DNA of 35,621 nucleotides from an uncultured Chloroflexota bacterium (GTDB lineage Bacteria; Chloroflexota; Chloroflexia; Chloroflexales; Chloroflexaceae): assembly GCA_937120965.1 (NCBI GenBank), contig CAKZKA010000250.1, positions 1 through 35,621 of the forward strand. The letters run 5' to 3'. Position numbers and translations under genes: made by a program. How positions within the stretch are numbered: position 1 is the stretch's first letter; each line of letters starts with the position of its first letter. Below, one piece after another: positions 5,144 to 30,035 of this stretch. A model generated the notes under the pieces. The model was not told where the DNA came from, did not search any database, and worked only from the letters and a program-made list of their open reading frames with translations.

Positions 5144-6430
5144 TTAACTCAGTGCCGCATCATCGGAGGCGCCCGGCCCCCCGCTGTCAACATTCCCCGT
5201 GGTCGTCGGGGCCGCCGCATCGCTCCCGCCCCCGGCAGCCTTTCTGGCGGCGTTCTTCGCCCGAATCGCCGCCAGACGGGCGGCCTTCTCGTCGGCAGGA
5301 GCAGTGGCAGCCTCTGCCGCGGACGTGGCAGCCCCGGCGGCAGGCGGCGCGGCGGCAGGCTCGGTCGCGGCCACATTCGCCTCAACCGGCGCGCCATCCG
5401 ACCCTTCGGCAGCCTTTCTGGCGGCATTCTTCGCCCGAATCGCCGCCAGGCGCGCGGCCTTCTCATCGGCAGGCGGAGCTTCGCCCGCCGGCTCGCCAGC
5501 AACAACAGGAGGAGCGTCCGGCGCCTCTCCCTTTCTGGCGGCATTCTTCGCCCGAATCGCCGCCAGGCGCGCGGCCTTCTCATCGGCAGGCGCCGCCCCG
5601 GCAGGAGCGACCGGCGGCTCGACCGTATCGCCGGCCTTTTTCGCCGCATTGGCAGCCTTGATTGCCGCCAGTTTGGCCGCCTTCTCCTCGGGAGTCAGCT
5701 TGCGCCCTTCGGCAGGGGCGGCGGCGGGCGCCGCGGGCGCCGTGGCCGCGGCAGCCGCGGCCTCCAGCTCGCGCCGGCGCGCAGCGATCTTCTCGGCCAG
5801 GTTCGGAGCCATCCCGATCACATCCGGACGGCGCTTGATGTTGCCCTGCAACTTCTTCATCGCCCCATCGCGCACCTCGGCCCACATTGTCGGCGCAATC
5901 CGCTCGTAGTACGAGATCGGGCGGTTCAACTGCTCCTTGAACACCGTCAACTTCTGATGGTCCGCCGTTGACAGCTCAAATTCGTGGTCCATCTTGATCG
6001 CGTCGAAGGGGCAAACCTCCGCGCAGAATCCGCAACTCATACAGGCATCGTACTCGATCACGAACTCGGCCACGGCGGGCACCGGCTTCCCGGTCGCCGG
6101 GTCTTTGGCCTGGGTCATATGAATGACCTGGGGCGGGCAGATCCGTTCGCACTGAAAGCACGAAGTACAGAGTTCGTGACTGGTCTCATCGTCGTAGAGA
6201 AGGATGGGCATGTTGCGATAGGCTTCGGGCAACTTCGGGCGCTCCTCGGGATACTCGTAGGTAAAGACCCCGTGGATATCGTTAAAGCCCTGGTTCTTAC
6301 GAAACGATCCCGCCCAGTGCTTCCACACAACCGCCATGCCATCGAGCAGGCCCATGCCGGGGAGCCGGCGCGCCGTTCGCTTCCCTCGCTCGACCGTCAC
6401 TATCTGACCGCGTTCGATCTTGACCGTCAT
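5144..6430 (-). CDS. nuoI: NADH-quinone oxidoreductase subunit I (NuoI) with a long repetitive basic C-terminal tail
   Basis: Peripheral-arm ferredoxin-like subunit carrying clusters N6a and N6b. The two 4Fe-4S motifs are complete: Cys88, 91, 94 and 98 followed by Pro, and Cys130, 133, 136 and 140 followed by Pro. The NuoI core ends near residue 210. A further 220 residues rich in Ala, Pro, Lys and Arg follow, so the product (428 residues) is about twice the usual length. The tail holds four copies of an 18-residue basic helical module: EEKAAKLAAIKAANAAKK at 248-265 and DEKAARLAAIRAKNAARK at 283-300, 322-339 and 380-397. Pro/Ala/Gly linkers separate them. The DNA repeats are nearly identical, which suggests recent amplification. 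The gene lies between nuoD and nuoH. Confidence 0.95.
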   Translation of the reverse strand: MTVKIERGQIVTVERGKRTARRLPGMGLLDGMAVVWKHWAGSFRKNQGFNDIHGVFTYEYPEERPKLPEAYRNMPILLYDDETSHELCTSCFQCERICPPQVIHMTQAKDPATGKPVPAVAEFVIEYDACMSCGFCAEVCPFDAIKMDHEFELSTADHQKLTVFKEQLNRPISYYERIAPTMWAEVRDGAMKKLQGNIKRRPDVIGMAPNLAEKIAARRRELEAAAAAATAPAAPAAAPAEGRKLTPEEKAAKLAAIKAANAAKKAGDTVEPPVAPAGAAPADEKAARLAAIRAKNAARKGEAPDAPPVVAGEPAGEAPPADEKAARLAAIRAKNAARKAAEGSDGAPVEANVAATEPAAAPPAAGAATSAAEAATAPADEKAARLAAIRAKNAARKAAGGGSDAAAPTTTGNVDSGGPGASDDAALS

Positions 6431-10605: not shown

Positions 10606-10679
10606 CTACACGCTTCCACAGAGAAGCTACCGCAGACACGCACGCGGCGTCACCGCGTAACCACACAATACAACGAGAT

Positions 10680-10832
10680 GTTCCTGGGAGGGCTTCGCCC
10701 TCCCAAACCCTCCCGCCAGGGAGGGGTGTGGGGAAACCCGGTTGCCCCATGTCCCAACCGCTGGTGGGAGCGGCTGGCGCCCCCCACAGGCAGGGGGACA
10801 GGGAAACCCGGTTTCCCCGTATGTTCACCTCA
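10680..10832 (+). repeat. Full palindromic element (A-core-spacer-core-end) between fhaA and fhaB
   Basis: This is the cleanest single copy. It starts with a perfect hairpin GGGAGGG-CTTCG-CCCTCCC (10686-10704), whose loop would be a stable C(UUCG)G tetraloop in RNA. Then come AAACCCTCCC and GGGAGGGG, core 1 (10730-10748, right arm GGTTGCCCC), the spacer CCAACCGCTGGTGGGAGCGG and core 2 (10800-10818). It ends in ATGTTCACCTCAG, whose last bases overlap the fhaA stop codon. Core-to-core distance is 70 bp. Confidence 0.9.
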
Positions 10833-11546
10833 GCTATCGCGAAAGGTCATTTCCAGGCCGCCGAGGGAAATGGTGTCGCCGTCTCGCAGGGCCGTTTCGC
10901 TGACCCGCGCGCCGTTGACAAAGGTGCCGTTCGTGCTGCCCAGATCGGTGATCCAGAAGCGCCGTTGCCGGTAGCGCAGTTGGGCATGGTGGCGTGAGAC
11001 GCGGCTGTCTTCGAGAATAATATCGTTGCCGAGGCCGCGCCCGATAGCGATGGCTGTGCTCTCCAGAGGGATCGAGCGCGGGCCTTCGGGCGTTTGCAGT
11101 AGCAGCAGGGCGTGGCTCTTGCGCGCGGGCGGCGCCGCCGTGGCTGGCGGAATGACCTGGGTGGTCTCTGCGCCCTGGCTGCTGGTCATCTCCGCGACAA
11201 CCTGGATGGAGCGTTTTGGCACCGCGGCGTCTTCGGCCAGAACGACACGAGGGTGTTCAAGCATGGCAAAGCCGCGCTCCTGGGCCAGTTCGCTCAGGTA
11301 GGTGGCCATTTCCTGTTCCAGTTGGCCCCGCACCGGCTCGAAGGCGGCGAAATCTTGCGGGTTGAGGTAGGCGCGGTAGAAGCTCGGCACAATCACCCGC
11401 CGGACACTGATGGATTGCTGGCTCTCCATGGCCCGCTCCAGGCGCCGGGCGATCTCTACCGGCTGCACCGGGCTGCGGAAGAGCCGCGCCACCGACCCCT
11501 CCACCAGTTGCTCCATGAACTGCTCAAAGCGGCTCAGCGCCGACAT
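10830..11546 (-). CDS. fhaA: FHA-domain protein with N-terminal DUF3662 (FhaA-like)
   Basis: 238-residue soluble protein. Residues 1-115 match the DUF3662 domain typical of FhaA (ARLFRSPVQPVEIARRLERAM, then VIVPSFYRAYLNPQDF). A linker follows, then an FHA domain at about 145-238 with GRGLGNDIIL, SRVSRHHAQL and DLGSTNGTFVNG. It probably binds phosphothreonine on partner proteins. ATG 11546 is chosen because GAGGAG lies upstream at the right distance and the family starts here. The frame open to 11708 is translated repeat sequence. It is likely co-transcribed with fhaB. Confidence 0.9.
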   Translation of the reverse strand: MSALSRFEQFMEQLVEGSVARLFRSPVQPVEIARRLERAMESQQSISVRRVIVPSFYRAYLNPQDFAAFEPVRGQLEQEMATYLSELAQERGFAMLEHPRVVLAEDAAVPKRSIQVVAEMTSSQGAETTQVIPPATAAPPARKSHALLLLQTPEGPRSIPLESTAIAIGRGLGNDIILEDSRVSRHHAQLRYRQRRFWITDLGSTNGTFVNGARVSETALRDGDTISLGGLEMTFRDS

Positions 11547-14039: not shown

Positions 14040-14440
14040 ACAGTACCATTACGACGCCAGAGCTGATGTGAACATATGGGGAAACCGGGTTTCCCCACCT
14101 GCGGTGAGCCTGTCGAACCGCACCCCTGCCGGTGGGGAGGTGCCAACCGCTCCCAACCGCGGTTGGGCCATGGGGAAACCCGGTTTCTCCATACTCCTGC
14201 CGGTGGGGGGGGCCAGCCGCTCCCAACCGCGGTTGGGCCATGGGGAAACCCGGTTTCCCCATACTCCTGCCGGTGGGGGGGGGCCAGCCGCTCCCAACCG
14301 CGGTGGGGACATGGGGAAACCGGGTTTCCCCACCTGCGGTGAGCCTGTCGAACCGCACCCCTGCCGGTGGGGAGGTGCCAGCCGCTCCCAACCGGGAGGG
14401 TCTGGGAGGGCATAGCGCTCCCAGGAAACAACCTGTTTTC
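14040..14440 (-). repeat. Four-core tandem palindromic array upstream of the GT87-like gene
   Basis: Part of a 760-bp stretch without genes (13986-14745). On the minus strand, cores lie at 14078-14096, 14172-14190, 14242-14260 and 14313-14331. Spacings of 70-71 bp apply to plain spacers and 94 bp where a D module (GGTGAGCCTGTCGAACC) is inserted. A second D module follows the last core, then a spacer piece and a CTGGGAGCGC/GCCCTCCCAG module A. The outer end is GTGAACATATG, the same as upstream of nuoL. Poly-G runs in the spacers differ by one base between copies. Confidence 0.88.
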
Positions 14441-14745: not shown

Positions 14746-16326
14746 ATGCTCCGCCGCAAGGGCCACCCGCGCGATTGCTACGTTCGTGACAACGAATACC
14801 TGCACCATCTGTATATTGACGGCGTCAAATACACCGTTGCGCGCGCGGTCTATGCCAGTCTCAAGGAAGCTCAGACCAGGGGTGACAGCGATGCTATCCT
14901 CCACCTCCAGATGCACGTGCAGGATCTGGAGCACCTGATCGCCGAAGCCCGCGCGCGGGGCGAGAACATCGCCAGCCTGCGCGCCATCGGCGACCCGCCG
15001 CCGTCCGATGACGAAGCGCGACCTCAACTGAACAATAGCTTCCTGCCCGCCCCGCCCCAGACCCTGGCGGAGACCGGCTTGAACCGCACCTTTCTAACCG
15101 AGCACCTCCTGCGCGTGCTCTACAATCGCGGGCGTATGACCGGCCGCGAGCTGGCCGATGCGCTCTGTCTCTATTACCGGATCGTCGAGGAACTGATCGC
15201 CGATCTGCGACGGGTTGAGCAGATTGACATCATCGGCCAGAAGGGCTTTGGCGACATCAACTACGAGTACGTGCTCACCCCCCGCGGGCAGGAAGCGGCC
15301 CAGGCGGCCCTGGAGAAGACCCAGTACACCGGGCCGGCCCCTGTGCCAATTAACGACTGGATCGCCTCGGTCAAAGCCCAGACGGTCAAGAATGTCAAAG
15401 TAACGCGCAAAAACATCCGTGACGCCTTCCAGGGCCTGGTCATAGACGAGTCGATCCTGAACTCGGTCGGCCCGGCGGTCAACTCGGGGTCATCGGTCAT
15501 GCTCTTCGGCTATCCTGGCAATGGCAAGACCACCATCGCCGAACGCATCACCCACCTGATGGGTGATGACATCTTTATCCCGCACACCATTTACGCCGAT
15601 GGCGCGATCATCAAAATGTACGACGCCATCGTGCACGAGCCGCCGAAGCGCCCCTGGGACGATCAGCAGGAGTTCGACCAGCGCTGGGTGCGCATCAGCC
15701 GCCCGGTGGTGATCGTCGGCGGCGAGTTGACCCTGGAGCAGTTGAACCTCATCTACAATGCCACTTCAAAGATCTACGAAGCGCCATTCCAGATGAAGGC
15801 CAACTGTGGCATCTTCTTGATTGACGACTTCGGGCGGCAACAGGTGCGCGTCTTCGACCTGCTCAACCGCTGGATCGTGCCCCTGGAGAAACGCTTCGAC
15901 TACCTGAACACCGTCACAGGGCAGAAAATCCAGATCCCCTTCGACCAGTTGATCATGTTCTCAACCAATCTGGACCCGAAGGATCTCGGTGATGAGGCCC
16001 TGTTACGGCGCATTAAGTTCAAGTTCGAGATCATCGACCCGACCGAGGAGCAGTGGCGCGAGATCTGGAAAATTATGTGCAAGGTTCGCGGTGTGCGCTA
16101 CGACGATCGGGCGATCGATTACCTGGTCAACAAGTGGTACAAGCCAGATAATCGCCCCTTTCGGATGTGTCAACCCCGCGATATTCTCGACCAGTTGATT
16201 TCGATCGCAAAATACAATATGGAGCAACCGGCCCTCACCGCCGATCTGCTCGACGATGCCTGTTTGACCTACTTTCCCAGTAAGGAAAAGAAGAACTTCG
16301 GAGCCAAGGTGCGACTGGATCTGTAG
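14746..16326 (+). CDS. AAA+ ATPase with helical and winged-helix-like N-terminal region
   Basis: 526-residue P-loop ATPase of unknown function. Residues 1-100 are charged and helical. Residues about 115-185 look like a winged-helix unit (FLTEHLLRVLYNRGRMTGRE, then YVLTPRGQEAA). The AAA+ module has Walker A GYPGNGKTT at 255-263, Walker B IFLIDDFGR at 356-364 and a sensor-1-type MFSTNLDPKDL near 403-412. DEALLRRIKFKF is a likely arginine-finger region. The frame stays open upstream of the first ATG to the stop at 14698-14700, reading a plausible TRYLLDQQSYDE, and there is no Shine-Dalgarno sequence before ATG 14746. The true start may therefore be a non-standard codon upstream, or the original start was lost next to the repeat. 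Confidence 0.85.
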   Translation: MLRRKGHPRDCYVRDNEYLHHLYIDGVKYTVARAVYASLKEAQTRGDSDAILHLQMHVQDLEHLIAEARARGENIASLRAIGDPPPSDDEARPQLNNSFLPAPPQTLAETGLNRTFLTEHLLRVLYNRGRMTGRELADALCLYYRIVEELIADLRRVEQIDIIGQKGFGDINYEYVLTPRGQEAAQAALEKTQYTGPAPVPINDWIASVKAQTVKNVKVTRKNIRDAFQGLVIDESILNSVGPAVNSGSSVMLFGYPGNGKTTIAERITHLMGDDIFIPHTIYADGAIIKMYDAIVHEPPKRPWDDQQEFDQRWVRISRPVVIVGGELTLEQLNLIYNATSKIYEAPFQMKANCGIFLIDDFGRQQVRVFDLLNRWIVPLEKRFDYLNTVTGQKIQIPFDQLIMFSTNLDPKDLGDEALLRRIKFKFEIIDPTEEQWREIWKIMCKVRGVRYDDRAIDYLVNKWYKPDNRPFRMCQPRDILDQLISIAKYNMEQPALTADLLDDACLTYFPSKEKKNFGAKVRLDL

Positions 16327-16645
16327 GAGGGCTTTTCCCTCCCACACCCTCCACACAGGGAGGGGCGCAGGGAAAACCCGGTTTCCTCAATCTCCAACCG
16401 CCGGCGGGGTCGCCTGGCGCTCCGATGGGCAGGGGTGCGGTTCGACAGGCTCACCGCAGGTGGGGAAACCGGGTTTCCCCGCGCCCCCTCGAGAGCGACA
16501 GGAGAGTGCCCAGCCCTCCCAAACCCTCCCCCGGGCAGGGGATTGGGGAAACCCGGTTTCCCCGATCCCCAACCGCGGTTGGGGTCGCCTGGTGCACCCA
16601 TAAGCAGCAGCACAGGGAAACCGGGTTTTCCCTATTTTCACCTCA
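16322..16645 (+). repeat. Two consecutive palindromic elements between the ATPase and GT39-like genes
   Basis: This fills most of a 402-bp gap. The first copy has module A (GGAGGGCTTTTCCCTCCC, next to the ATPase stop), core at 16370-16387, spacer, D module (GGTTCGACAGGCTCACC near 16439-16455) and core at 16462-16480, at 92-bp spacing. The second has module A (CCCTCCCAAACCCTCCC), cores at 16544-16562 and 16614-16632 at 70-bp spacing, and the end CTATTTTCACCTCAAG. Both have the same orientation, so this is a head-to-tail duplication of the whole unit. Confidence 0.88.
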
Positions 16646-16728
16646 AGAACAAACCAGTGACACCTTTAGCAAACCGAACCCTATCGCCGGAGAATGGCCT
16701 TGCCCCAAAAGCACGCCTGGCGTTAACC

Positions 16729-24396: not shown

Positions 24397-24966
24397 ATGG
24401 ATGACTGCGCGGTTGCGACCCTGGCCGAATTACAGATCCGCTTGCAGACGCTCAAGCTCCTACCGCGCACGGGCTGGCTGCAGCGCGGCCTGGGCGATGT
24501 GGAAAGTGTCGCCGAGCATAGTTTTGGTGTGGCAATTCTGGCGCTGATCATCGGCGATCAGCACCCCGAGCTGGACCGGGAACGGCTCCTTGCCACGGCG
24601 TTGATCCACGACATGGCCGAGGCGCTCATTGGCGATCTCCCGGCCTCGGCCCGGCGGCTCTTCGGAGCAACGGCCAAGCAAGAAGCGGAGCGCAAGGCGC
24701 TGCTCGAACTGCTCAACGGGCTACCGCAGGCCGCACGCTATCTGACGCTCTGGGAAGAGTACAGTCAGGGAACTACGCCCGAGGCCCGGCTGGTAAAGGC
24801 GCTTGACCGGTTGGAGATGCTGGGCCAGGCGTTAGTCTACGAACGGGCTGGCGCCCGCACCCTCGCTGAGTTCTGGGAGGATCGCAACGGCTGGTTCGAT
24901 GAGTTTCCCCTGGTGCGCGCTCTGGCTGACCGGCTGTACGCCGAGCATGACCGGCACGCCGGGTAA
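24397..24966 (+). CDS. HD-domain protein, YfbR/HDDC2-like 5'-nucleotidase
   Basis: 189-residue metal-dependent phosphohydrolase of the HD superfamily. Metal ligands are visible as His41 (SVAEHSFGVA), His71-Asp72 (ALIHDMAEALIGDLP) and Asp137 (KALDRLEM). The N-terminal LLPRTGWLQRG resembles the substrate-binding Arg/Trp segment of YfbR, a deoxynucleoside-5'-monophosphatase. The assigned substrate is an inference from that similarity. The ATG has a strong GAGGAGG site. The gene stands alone, followed by a nine-core repeat array. Confidence 0.88.
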   Translation: MDDCAVATLAELQIRLQTLKLLPRTGWLQRGLGDVESVAEHSFGVAILALIIGDQHPELDRERLLATALIHDMAEALIGDLPASARRLFGATAKQEAERKALLELLNGLPQAARYLTLWEEYSQGTTPEARLVKALDRLEMLGQALVYERAGARTLAEFWEDRNGWFDEFPLVRALADRLYAEHDRHAG

Positions 24967-25009
24967 AACGCGGAACGATTCTGGGGATCTGGTCTGCTCA
25001 AATGCTCCC

Positions 25010-25608
25010 CTGAGCAGGGGTGTCAGGGAAAACCCGGTTTCCCCGGTTCCCAACCGCTGCTGGGAGCGGCTGGCACCCCCACAGGCAGGGGGTTGGGGAA
25101 ACCCGGGTTCCCCGGTTCCCAACCGCTGCTGGGAGCGGCTGGCACCCCCACAGGCAGGAGTATGGGGAAACCCGGGTTCCCCGGTTCCCAACCGCTGGTG
25201 GGAGCCGCTGGCACCCCCACAGGCAGGGGCATGGGGAAACCCGGGTTCCCCGGTTCCCAACCGCTGGTGGGAGCCGCTGGCACCCCACCGGCAGGGGATT
25301 GGGGAAACCCGGGTTCCCCGGTTCCCAACCGCTGGTGGGAGCCGCTGGCACCCCACCGGCAGGGGCATGGGGAAACCCGGGTTCCCCGCTTCCCAACCGC
25401 TGCTGGGAGCGGCTGGCACCCCCACAGGCAGGGGGTTGGGGAAACCCGGGTTCCCCGCTTCCCAACCGCTGCTGGGAGCGGCTGGCACCCCCACAGGCAG
25501 GGGGTTGGGGAAACCCGGGTTCCCCGGTTCCCAACCGCTGGTGGGAGCCGCTGGCACCCCACAGGCAGGGGCATGGGGAAACCCGGGTTCCCCATATGTT
25601 CACATTAG
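25010..25608 (+). repeat. Tandem array of nine palindromic cores (68-69 bp period)
   Basis: Cores begin at 25026, 25095, 25164, 25233, 25301, 25369, 25438, 25507 and 25575. Cores 2-9 are GGGGAAACCCGGGTTCCCC; core 1 is GGGAAAACCCGGTTTCCCC. The eight 49-50 bp spacers are of two kinds: CCAACCGCTGCTGGGAGCGG after cores 1, 2, 6 and 7, and CCAACCGCTGGTGGGAGCCG after cores 3, 4, 5 and 8. The array ends in CATATGTTCACATTAG, which contains the mutM stop codon. It occupies the whole gap between the convergent HD and mutM genes. Several reading frames stay open throughout because the period is close to a multiple of three. Confidence 0.95.
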
Positions 25609-26433
25609 CGGCGACGGTTGGCACGTGGGGCAGAAAAAGGTGCTGCGCTGGCCAACCACGATGCGTTCGATCGGCGTGCCGCACCGCTGGCAGGGATGGC
25701 CGCGGCGGTCGTAGGCCAGAAAGTGTTCCTGGTTCTGGCCGCGCAGACCGTAGCCATTGCGGTAGTTGCGTAACGAACTGCCCTCATGCTCGATGGCGCT
25801 GGTCAACACCTGGCGGATAGCGGCATGCAGCGCCGTCACGTCGGCGGCCTCGATGGCGCAGGCCGGGGTCAGGGGGTGAATGCGCGCCAGCCAGAGAGCC
25901 TCGCTGGCGTAGATGTTGCCCATACCGGCGATCATCCGCTGGTCGAGCAGGAGTGGCTTGATGCGCGTGCGTCGCCCGTGGAGGATGCGCCCCAGATCGG
26001 CAGCCGTGAAGCGGTCATCGAGTGGCTCCGGGCCATACGCCGCATCGAGGGCGGCCAGCCCGGCGGCGTCCAGGAGCCGCACCCGGCCGAACTTGCGCTC
26101 GTCGTCGAAGAACAGGCGCTGCTGGTTGTCCAGGCGCAAAACCAGATGGACGTGGGAACGGGCACTGTCGGCGGGGGAGTGGATCTCCAGGCGCCCCGAC
26201 ATGCGCAGATGGATCGCCAGGGTCCAGCCGGCATCCAGATCGAAGAGCAGCCATTTGGCGCGCCGCCGCGCAGCGCCAATGCGGCGGCCGGCGATTGCCT
26301 GGCGAAACGCGCTGGCCGAGGGGGTCTCGACCATGCGTTCCCAGTCGAGGTGCTCAACGTCCAGGATCGTGCGCCCGACCAGTTGCGGCGCCAGCGAACG
26401 GGCAATGATTTCGACTTCGGGTAACTCGGGCAT
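25600..26433 (-). CDS. mutM: Formamidopyrimidine-DNA glycosylase (Fpg/MutM)
   Basis: Bifunctional glycosylase/AP lyase that removes 8-oxoguanine and formamidopyrimidines. The 277-residue product begins with the essential Pro and Glu (MPELPEVEIIARSL). It has the GMGNIYASEALWLARIHP block and ends with a complete four-Cys zinc finger (CQRCG, then FFCPTC). ATG 26433 is set by the catalytic N-terminal Pro; the frame open to 26451 would bury it. The last codons and the TGA lie in the end of the adjacent repeat array (CTAATGTGAACAT), so the final Leu-Met after SP may come from the repeat. Confidence 0.96.
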   Translation of the reverse strand: MPELPEVEIIARSLAPQLVGRTILDVEHLDWERMVETPSASAFRQAIAGRRIGAARRRAKWLLFDLDAGWTLAIHLRMSGRLEIHSPADSARSHVHLVLRLDNQQRLFFDDERKFGRVRLLDAAGLAALDAAYGPEPLDDRFTAADLGRILHGRRTRIKPLLLDQRMIAGMGNIYASEALWLARIHPLTPACAIEAADVTALHAAIRQVLTSAIEHEGSSLRNYRNGYGLRGQNQEHFLAYDRRGHPCQRCGTPIERIVVGQRSTFFCPTCQPSPLM

Positions 26434-26890
26434 GGGATGCGCGACATCCATACGGCGGCGTCGCCCACCACCAGGATGACCATGTTGCGGGAAGGGCTAT
26501 CCCTTCGCGAACCTCCCCGCGGGGCGAGGATTGAAGAACGCGGCTTTCTCTCCCTGGCAAATACTGCTGGCAAACCCCGTTTTGTCCCCGCGGGGCGCGG
26601 GCGTCTAATCCTCGTGCAGGCCGGAGGCCCACGTACCCGGGTTTGTCAACAGTATCCTTGCAAAACGCGCCTGGCGCCACTCATACCAATTACCGTTGAT
26701 GATGCCGCATTGCCTGAAGCGATTTCAGGCGTTGTGCTGCCCAGCGTGGCAATCCACAATCCAAAATCTAAAATCCAAAATGGTATCATACCAATTTCAC
26801 TTGAACATTCCGCAAGCAGCGTTGCGTCAAAGCGCACCTGGACGCCTTGCGCGACAATCTGCAATCCAAAATCTACAATCTGAAATGGTA
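26434..26890. repeat. Heptamer-type repeats and hairpin remnants between mutM and moaE
   Basis: 457 bp without a gene. A module-A-like hairpin GGGAAGGGCTATCCCTTCGCG lies near 26490-26510, and CCCCGCGGGG palindromes lie nearby. Two heptamer tracts follow: 26750-26781 (AATCCAAAATCTAAAATCC) and 26855-26887 (CAATCCAAAATCTACAATC). Each leads into ATGGTATCA. The first is completed to the palindrome TGGTATCATACCA (26781-26793). The second runs directly into the moaE stop codon (26891-26893). Confidence 0.75.
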
Positions 26891-27313
26891 TCACTCGTGG
26901 CGCCACTCAGCCTCACCATCGGCCCAGTGCTCTTTTTTCCAGATCGGGGCGATTTCCTTGATCCGGTCCATAATGTAGGCCGCGGCCTGAAAGGCTTCCT
27001 GGCGGTGCGGCGCGGCAACGACGACGAGCACGGCGGTTTCGCCGATTTCCAGGGTGCCGATGCGGTGGTGTATCGCCACCCGGCCAATCGGCCAGCGCGC
27101 GCGGGCTTCCTCGGCGATCCGGGCAAGCACCGGCACGGCCATCTCGGCATAGGCTTCGTAGCTGAGAAACGCGGTCGAGCGACCGCCGAACTGATTGCGG
27201 GCCACGCCAGCGAAGGTCACAACCGCGCCGTCATCTGGCGTCTGCGCGTAGGCGACCAGAGGCGCCGGGTCGAGGGGCGCCGCGGTGATCACAAAGGGTT
27301 GAAACGGTTGCAT
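26891..27313 (-). CDS. moaE: Molybdopterin synthase catalytic subunit MoaE
   Basis: Large subunit of molybdopterin synthase, which inserts sulfur carried by MoaD into precursor Z (cPMP). The 140-residue product has DDGAVVTFAGVARNQFGG, HRIGTLEIGETAVLVVVAAPHR and the active-site segment RIKEIAPIWKKEHW with catalytic lysines. The start (MQPFQPFVITAAPLDP) lies inside the end of moaD (25-base overlap). Its TGA is provided where a heptamer repeat (ATGGTATCA on plus) abuts the gene. Confidence 0.95.
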   Translation of the reverse strand: MQPFQPFVITAAPLDPAPLVAYAQTPDDGAVVTFAGVARNQFGGRSTAFLSYEAYAEMAVPVLARIAEEARARWPIGRVAIHHRIGTLEIGETAVLVVVAAPHRQEAFQAAAYIMDRIKEIAPIWKKEHWADGEAEWRHE

Positions 27314-28847: not shown

Positions 28848-29342
28848 ATGGATCCACAGCTGACAAGTATCATTGTTCCTTCAGAGGAGTTGGTCCAGAT
28901 AGAGGAGTGCCTTGGCCGGCTGGTCGAAGATACGTCCAGCGATTATGCTCTGCTCCTCGATAAGAGTGGCCAGGTGATCTCCTCGAAGGGTGACGCTGAT
29001 CGGCAGGATATCACCGCTCTGGGTGCGCTGATCGCGGGCGTCTTTGCTTCATCCCGTGAGGTGGCCAAACTGCTGCGCGAGCGGGATTTTCGGAACACCT
29101 TCCAGCAGGGGGTGCGCGAGAACATTTTCATCGCGCTGATTGAAGAGCAGTGGATCCTGTGCATCATTTTCAACAAAGGCACCCATATCGGTCTGGTGAA
29201 GGTGTTAACGAAAAAAGCTACCGATGAACTGGCCACGGTGCTTGAGCGTGTTCGGCAACAACATAAGGCCCGTGACGAGGTGCTCGGCTCGTCGTTCCGC
29301 ACTTCAATGGAAGATACGATCGACCTGCTGTTCCGCGATTAA
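28848..29342 (+). CDS. Roadblock/LC7-domain protein, MglB-like
   Basis: 164-residue protein. The roadblock core runs from about residue 15 to 130: LVEDTSSDYALLLDKSGQVIS, ITALGALIAGVFASSREVAKLL, NIFIALIEEQWILCIIF and HIGLVKVLTKKATDEL. A C-terminal helix of about 35 residues ends in SFRTSMEDTIDLLFRD. The length and extra helix resemble MglB-type GTPase-activating proteins. It lies 105 bp before the MglA-like GTPase. AAGGTAGG precedes the start. Its biochemical role is inferred from family and position. Confidence 0.88.
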   Translation: MDPQLTSIIVPSEELVQIEECLGRLVEDTSSDYALLLDKSGQVISSKGDADRQDITALGALIAGVFASSREVAKLLRERDFRNTFQQGVRENIFIALIEEQWILCIIFNKGTHIGLVKVLTKKATDELATVLERVRQQHKARDEVLGSSFRTSMEDTIDLLFRD

Positions 29343-29447
29343 CTGGCGGCGGTTCCGGGTACCTGCGAGGCGCTGCCCCGTGCTGTGGCCGACGCCGTTG
29401 CAGGTCGCCCCGCCCCTCTTCCTCTCAACAGGCATGCGAGCGAACCT

Positions 29448-30035
29448 ATGGCGCTAATCAACGTTGCGGCACGCGAAATTCACTGCAAGATCGTCTACTA
29501 TGGCCCCGGTATGTGCGGCAAGACGACGAATCTGCAGTACATTCACAGTCAGGTGCCAAAAGAGATCAAAGGTGACCTGCTGTCAATCGCGACGGAGACA
29601 GAACGGACTCTGTTCTTCGACTTTTTGCCCCTCGATCTGGGAAAGGTCCGCGGATTTCAGACTCGCTTTCATCTGTATACCGTGCCCGGTCAGGTGTTGT
29701 ACGAGCGCACCCGGGTAGCCGTGCTCAACGGCGCCGATGGGGTGGTGTTTGTTGCCGATTCCCACAAGAAGAAGATGCAGGAGAATGTCAATAGTCTCCG
29801 CGAACTGGCGCAGAATGTGACGCGGCAAAACAAGAAGTTTTCCGAGTTTCCGATTGTGGTGCAGTACAACAAGCGCGATCTGCCCGAGGATGTCCTGGTC
29901 TCGGTGCAGACGATGGATCATTACCTGGGCGTAACCCGGATGAACTGGCCACGGATCGAAGCCGTTGCCACGACGGGCGCAGGGGTCTTCGAGACGCTGC
30001 GCGCCATCAGCCGGGCGGTGATCAGTAAACTCTAA
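29448..30035 (+). CDS. mglA: MglA-like small Ras-family GTPase
   Basis: 195-residue GTPase. The P-loop GPGMCGKTTNLQ is at 19-30, the intrinsic arginine segment TERTLFFDFLP includes Arg53, and the switch region reads LYTVPGQVLYERTR at 77-89. NKRD (141-144) gives guanine specificity. MINVAAREIHCKIVYYGPG-type openings and TVPGQV are hallmarks of MglA, which controls cell polarity and gliding or pilus-based motility in myxobacteria and is widespread in other phyla. I start it at ATG 29448; the frame back to 29385 is unsupported and no good Shine-Dalgarno sequence is visible. A roadblock gene precedes it. Confidence 0.92.
   Translation: MALINVAAREIHCKIVYYGPGMCGKTTNLQYIHSQVPKEIKGDLLSIATETERTLFFDFLPLDLGKVRGFQTRFHLYTVPGQVLYERTRVAVLNGADGVVFVADSHKKKMQENVNSLRELAQNVTRQNKKFSEFPIVVQYNKRDLPEDVLVSVQTMDHYLGVTRMNWPRIEAVATTGAGVFETLRAISRAVISKL

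Follow-up and report, generated by a model that had tools for sequence, protein, structure and literature searches.

At a probability of about 80%, the nine palindromic cores packed between two convergent genes belong to a single copy of a modular element that is non-coding and dispersed between genes, and in which the internal unit of core plus spacer has multiplied in place. The repeat lies between genes hundreds of times in the genome studied here and is far rarer in sister species, making this genome a well-sampled case of bacterial invasion by a small modular repeat. The array, the longest intact one found in its intergenic repeat family, is one locus where growth from one unit to nine can be read against orthologues. 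Its membership in a modular dispersed family was missed by the initial annotation of the window, as we call the whole 35,621-nt stretch of DNA that was analysed.

The nine-core array and its neighbouring genes

Nine 19-bp palindromic cores fill 568 bp (25026-25593) at exactly the positions, and with the 68-69 bp steps, that had been reported initially (from core 1 to core 9: 69, 69, 69, 68, 68, 69, 69 and 68 bp; Table 1), and TRF returned a period of 69 with a score of 947. They take up the gap between an HD-domain gene and mutM, whose product has its closest relatives in Chloroflexaceae/Chloroflexales MAGs and Oscillochloris-like organisms. The remnant to the left of core 1 agrees with the left module CTCTCGCCAGGCAGGGGTAT of single-core relatives. 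A single T-to-G change in the shifted cores creates a CCCGGG centre and breaks palindrome pair 7/13. This shift had been noticed before, and it holds for cores 2-9 but not for core 1; the accompanying claim that it sets the array apart from dispersed copies is incorrect, since the genome contains 63 copies of the shifted core, 8 of them in the array.

Table 1. Coordinates of the array, its flanking genes and the other elements in the window
Feature	Position	Strand	Remark
HD-domain gene (HD_3 / YfbR-like)	24397..24966	+	stop codon 59 bp before core 1
Left remnant	25004..25025	+	hairpin GCTCCCCTGAGCAGGGG + TGTCA before core 1
Core 1	25026..25044	.	GGGAAAACCCGGTTTCCCC, right half unshifted
Core 2	25095..25113	.	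GGGGAAACCCGGGTTCCCC
Core 3	25164..25182	.	GGGGAAACCCGGGTTCCCC
Core 4	25233..25251	.	GGGGAAACCCGGGTTCCCC
Core 5	25301..25319	.	GGGGAAACCCGGGTTCCCC
Core 6	25369..25387	.	GGGGAAACCCGGGTTCCCC
Core 7	25438..25456	.	GGGGAAACCCGGGTTCCCC
Core 8	25507..25525	.	GGGGAAACCCGGGTTCCCC
Core 9	25575..25593	.	GGGGAAACCCGGGTTCCCC
Eight U-type spacers	25045..25574	+	49-50 nt each, interleaved with cores 2-8
Tail module	25594..25608	+	ATATGTTCACATTAG, after core 9
mutM/fpg, formamidopyrimidine-DNA glycosylase	25600..26451	-	convergent with HD-domain gene
Second element	10684..10833	+	hairpin-core-unit-core-tail
Third element	14063..14424	-	four cores, tail at left, 92-bp-type + 69-bp-type units
Fourth element	16323..16646	+	hairpin-core-unit-core-hairpin-core-unit-core-tail

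The spacers follow the pattern CCCAACCGCTG.TGGGAGC.GCTGGCACC.. ..GGCAGGGG and are 86-100% alike in pairs (0-7 differences in 50), with variable sites at G[G/C]TTCCC, CCCC/CCCCC and ACA/ACC and in the last 3-5 bases. Regular palindromic repeats and near-constant spacer length recall a CRISPR array, which these spacers rule out, being alike rather than unique. The initial division into two subtypes in the order I-I-II-II-II-I-I-II is reproduced for 13-mers, whereas the eight full spacers comprise seven distinct sequences, with units 6 and 7 as the only identical pair. The two diagnostic bases change together inside the array, as had been claimed, but outside it the commonest states are G..G (33) and T..G (27). 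The subtypes therefore look like two separate derived changes, and the same common states rule out compensatory pairing as the cause of the linkage. Block duplication, which had been preferred to single-unit slippage, was not borne out: four runs among eight units are ordinary (runs P = 0.37), an offset of 5 units, the best one for blocks, gave an uncorrected P of 0.06, and the identical adjacent units 6 and 7 are what single-unit duplication would produce.

Cores are common where contigs begin, 37 of 78 sampled contig starts having one within 400 bp compared with 13.5% of random 400-bp stretches. This excess shows that cores break the assembly, which is in 307 contigs, and the repeat family thus helps to explain its break points. 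A nine-copy length that the assembly itself created over these 568 bp is nevertheless highly improbable: seven of the eight spacer sequences can be told apart, the flanks of the array are unique and syntenic with sister species G003, and short-read assembly is likelier to collapse diverged copies than to create them. At the starts of contigs C147 and C265 (L054) of this genome (G000), regular core arrays with steps of 68 bp and 91-92 bp reach the contig ends, so longer arrays may exist that were cut by assembly.

On its opposite strand the tail module reads CTGAGGTGAACATA, with TGA in two frames, and its minus strand gives mutM its stop codon (TGA, 25602-25600). In a 1.12-Mb sample of contigs, with genes called by a simple codon model, 54 genes including mutM end in the tail, the first TGA serving 34 of them and the second 20.

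A dispersed family of modular elements

The exact core GGGGAAACCSGGTTTCCCC has 1156 copies in the 5.18-Mb genome, compared with 0 for a reversed-pattern control, which shows that its abundance is not due to chance. Four congeners carry 5, 68, 74 and 132 exact cores, and genomes of other genera in a 61-genome set mostly 0 and at most 3. Although some of the sampled contigs were picked for carrying known cores, the sample and the whole genome have similar densities of exact cores (0.24 and 0.22 per kb). With up to 3 mismatches the sample contains 682 cores, 544 of them intergenic, 135 at sequence edges outside called genes and 3 within called genes; 679 of the 682 thus lie outside called genes, although these make up 76% of the sequence. 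Extrapolated to 5.2 Mb, the sample gives an estimate of 2,900 cores. Gaps in tandem, divergent and convergent orientation all carry cores, most densely the convergent ones (3.89 per kb, compared with 2.04-2.35 per kb in the others).

Annotation of modules gave the grammar (head - hairpin) - core - (69-bp unit + core)n - tail, in which n is mostly 0 or 1 but 8 in the nine-core array, and the left module is frequently absent. In the sample, the tail follows one core in 87 cases, two in 42, three in 4, four in 2, five in 2 and nine in 1, the array. Core-to-core spacing has two maxima, at 69 bp and at 92 bp, and the longer unit is a 69-bp unit with a nested hairpin, TGCGGTTCGACAGGCTCACCGCA. In the third window element and at many other loci, the 92-bp unit arises from a hairpin, GCGGTTCGACAGGCTCACCGC, that always occupies the same place in the 69-bp unit; this motif had no match in the literature searched. 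Core flanks are mostly RTATKTTCAC, ACCCCTGCC or ATGTCCCAACC. A sharp element boundary was found on the right only, where elements end in core-RTATKTTCACMTCAG and base agreement drops from 0.96 to 0.32 (background) past TTCAC.TCAG. Exact tails number 860 in this genome and 7-35 in congeners.

Rfam gave no match in the window at gathering score. The core sequence was not found in the literature searched, nor was any paper joining Chloroflexus with repetitive extragenic palindromic sequences.

Several properties of the core would suit host-maintained sites, for instance for a dimeric nucleoid or regulatory protein on GGGGAAACCNGGTTTCCCC, with the array as a selected site cluster. The core is an odd palindrome with a free central base, its central CC.GG is conserved (at least 90% at each base) even though a hairpin would have these bases in its loop, and cores turn up in gaps of all three orientations. 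Compensatory changes at core pairs 5/15 (22/494) and 7/13 (40/494) could reflect a dyad binding site as well as gene conversion among copies; shared descent inflates their counts. Because core copy number is ~9- to 230-fold apart between congeners and mostly zero in other genera, and because the cores are embedded in larger elements with a fixed tail, we consider maintenance by the host unlikely.

It is similarly doubtful that the elements act as RNA, as 3'-UTR hairpins that end transcription or stabilise the mRNA of convergent genes, in which case the array would be a strong bidirectional terminator or insulator. Its position between convergent genes and the peak of core density in convergent gaps are consistent with such a role, as is an RNA fold of two units far better than shuffles (z -5.4), but DNA parameters also gave a strong result (z -3.7) and 54% of divergent gaps bear cores. 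No U-tract terminator was found in 24900-25700. In the transcribed orientation, G-U mismatches were not in excess over A-C mismatches (55 versus 51, P = 0.77), a strand test on which we dismissed selection for RNA hairpins. The array probably has no dedicated function beyond filling the convergent 3' UTR with hairpins.

Probable growth in place and comparison with sister species

Units within the array have an identity of 0.917, compared with a mean of 0.705 to other units and 0.902 for the best outside match, and for each of the eight units the nearest neighbour is another array unit. A marker, G[GC]TTCCCAACC, occurs in the sample only in the array. That array units are closest to each other argues that the array grew in place. 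Other arrays behave likewise: in 10 of 12 arrays with three or more units, all nearest neighbours are internal. Both ends of arrays are cores whatever the spacer type (69, 72, 80 and 85-92 bp here; 44 bp in sister species G002), as predicted by recombination or slippage between cores.

The window is syntenic from end to end with one G003 contig. Across the 35 gaps shared with this species, we counted 42 cores and 15 tails here against 8 and 2 there, in a total gap length of 9267 bp against 5492 bp. The orthologous gap between the HD-domain gene and mutM contains nine cores in this genome and none in G001 and G002, while G003 and G004 each have a single decayed core. The locus is therefore variable in length between species (9, 1, 1, 0 and 0 cores), in agreement with the initial suggestion. 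In G003, mutM terminates in GATGGTCACGTCGG, which resembles the tail in altered form, and the gene ends of G002 and G004 are similar to it. These tail-like mutM ends suggest that the element inserted at mutM probably before the species split.

In a likely history, an ancestral element with a single core would have inserted into this gap ahead of the divergence of the genus, and its tail, extending into the 3' end of mutM, would have provided the gene with its stop codon. The element would next have gained a second core, formed there or brought in from elsewhere. Between the 19-bp palindromes that flank the units, replication slippage or unequal recombination could then have added and removed units, as the similarity of the units suggests. 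Homogenisation alongside this gain and loss would have led to the nine cores.

Elsewhere in the window, the 10608-10832 gap is missing from G003, which carries only ATGTCGAACATCTAGCTATCTCG at the position of the second element. This is the only near-clean empty site that we found; the 224-bp difference includes ~75 bp to the left of the element that lie outside assigned modules. A concrete tail, a head and this candidate empty site provide leads to the mobiliser.

A candidate mobile frame and known repeat systems

The element is probably a selfish miniature mobile element. Of the 65 cases in which a head comes after a tail, 63 share one 6-bp junction, which indicates elements joined head to tail. 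Head-to-tail lengths cluster near 98, 122, 146, 168, 191, 215 and 243 bp, a period of ~24 bp (R 0.66 versus a null maximum of 0.30, with R inflated by related copies). GATGAAAATA and TATTTTCAC may be subterminal inverted repeats of the element. The tail also closes elements that carry CCCGCGCGGG hairpins where the core would be, and G023 and G035, which belong to a different genus of the family, have this tail and the head on either side of an 8-bp satellite, (GGCTATCG)n. In G023 the tail follows the satellite GGCTATCG at L146:46-240, L145:1972 and L148-L151, and head-to-tail copies lie 97 bp apart.

Tentatively, and with the odds somewhat against it, the tail TATKTTCACMTCAG and the head CATGCG..CGCACAAC..GATGAA could form a mobile-element frame, present in at least two genera of the family, whose interior is freely swapped; a non-Y1 enzyme would copy it head to tail with a fixed junction, and the frame would act as a nursery of tandem arrays. 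The swapped interiors would conceivably be palindrome arrays here, (GGCTATCG)n in G023/G035 and another hairpin in G004.

The end layout of hairpin, short tail and TCAG had suggested a RAYT/IS200-IS605 system, a candidate rejected because this genome has no Y1 gene: Y1 transposase (Y1_Tnp, PF01797) gave 0 matches here, compared with matches in 5 of 14 control genomes; G002-G004 likewise gave none, and G001 one weak match. Neither head nor tail was found in the fetched loci around the Y1 matches of G023, G030 and G008. A search for IS91-type Y2 (Y2_Tnp) was uninformative, as it matched no control genome. Among candidate autonomous copies, ten of the genes enclosed by a head and a tail at 1.2-2.9 kb from each other were scanned, and all were of host type.

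By behaviour, the closest known kind are the BOX elements of Streptococcus pneumoniae, which supply stop codons to 36 adjacent genes (54 for the element here, in the sample) and whose mobiliser is not established (Croucher et al. 2011, PMC3049150). Both are composite, intergenic and hairpin-rich, and large copies of both are open to ORFs on both strands. The BOX-like layout, in which two end modules enclose a variable number of tandem internal units, is found here as well. In contrast to BOX, the element comes from another phylum and has a repeated unit delimited by a 19-bp palindrome, ~24-bp length steps and head-to-tail joining.

REP/BIME repeats are likewise abundant short palindromes outside genes that often form mosaic clusters (Nunvar 2010, PMC2817692; PMC3733652), but the repeat unit here is much longer and the genome is without a Y1 transposase match. 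The element closes with TCAG, following a tail of ~14 nt, rather than with the GTAG or CGTC of the families in PMC3733652, so that both the transposase and the end tag place it outside REP/RAYT. ERIC, RUP and MITEs are likewise small non-coding intergenic mobile repeats; unlike them, the element has a tandemly variable internal unit, and no terminal inverted repeats or target duplication are confirmed.

A second dispersed repeat, ACAATCCAAAATCTAAAATCCAAAATGGTATCA, has two copies in the window (26739-26893), with relatives in other contigs (ATACCAATT.. and TTTTGGATTTTAGATT.., near L024:3349 and L081:6014). Four imperfect 72-nt repeats at 5233-5700 lie within a long minus-strand ORF (5144-6430), possibly encoding an Ala/Lys-rich repeat protein. 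At 28848-30035, a Roadblock/LC7 gene is followed by an Arf/Ras-like GTPase gene.
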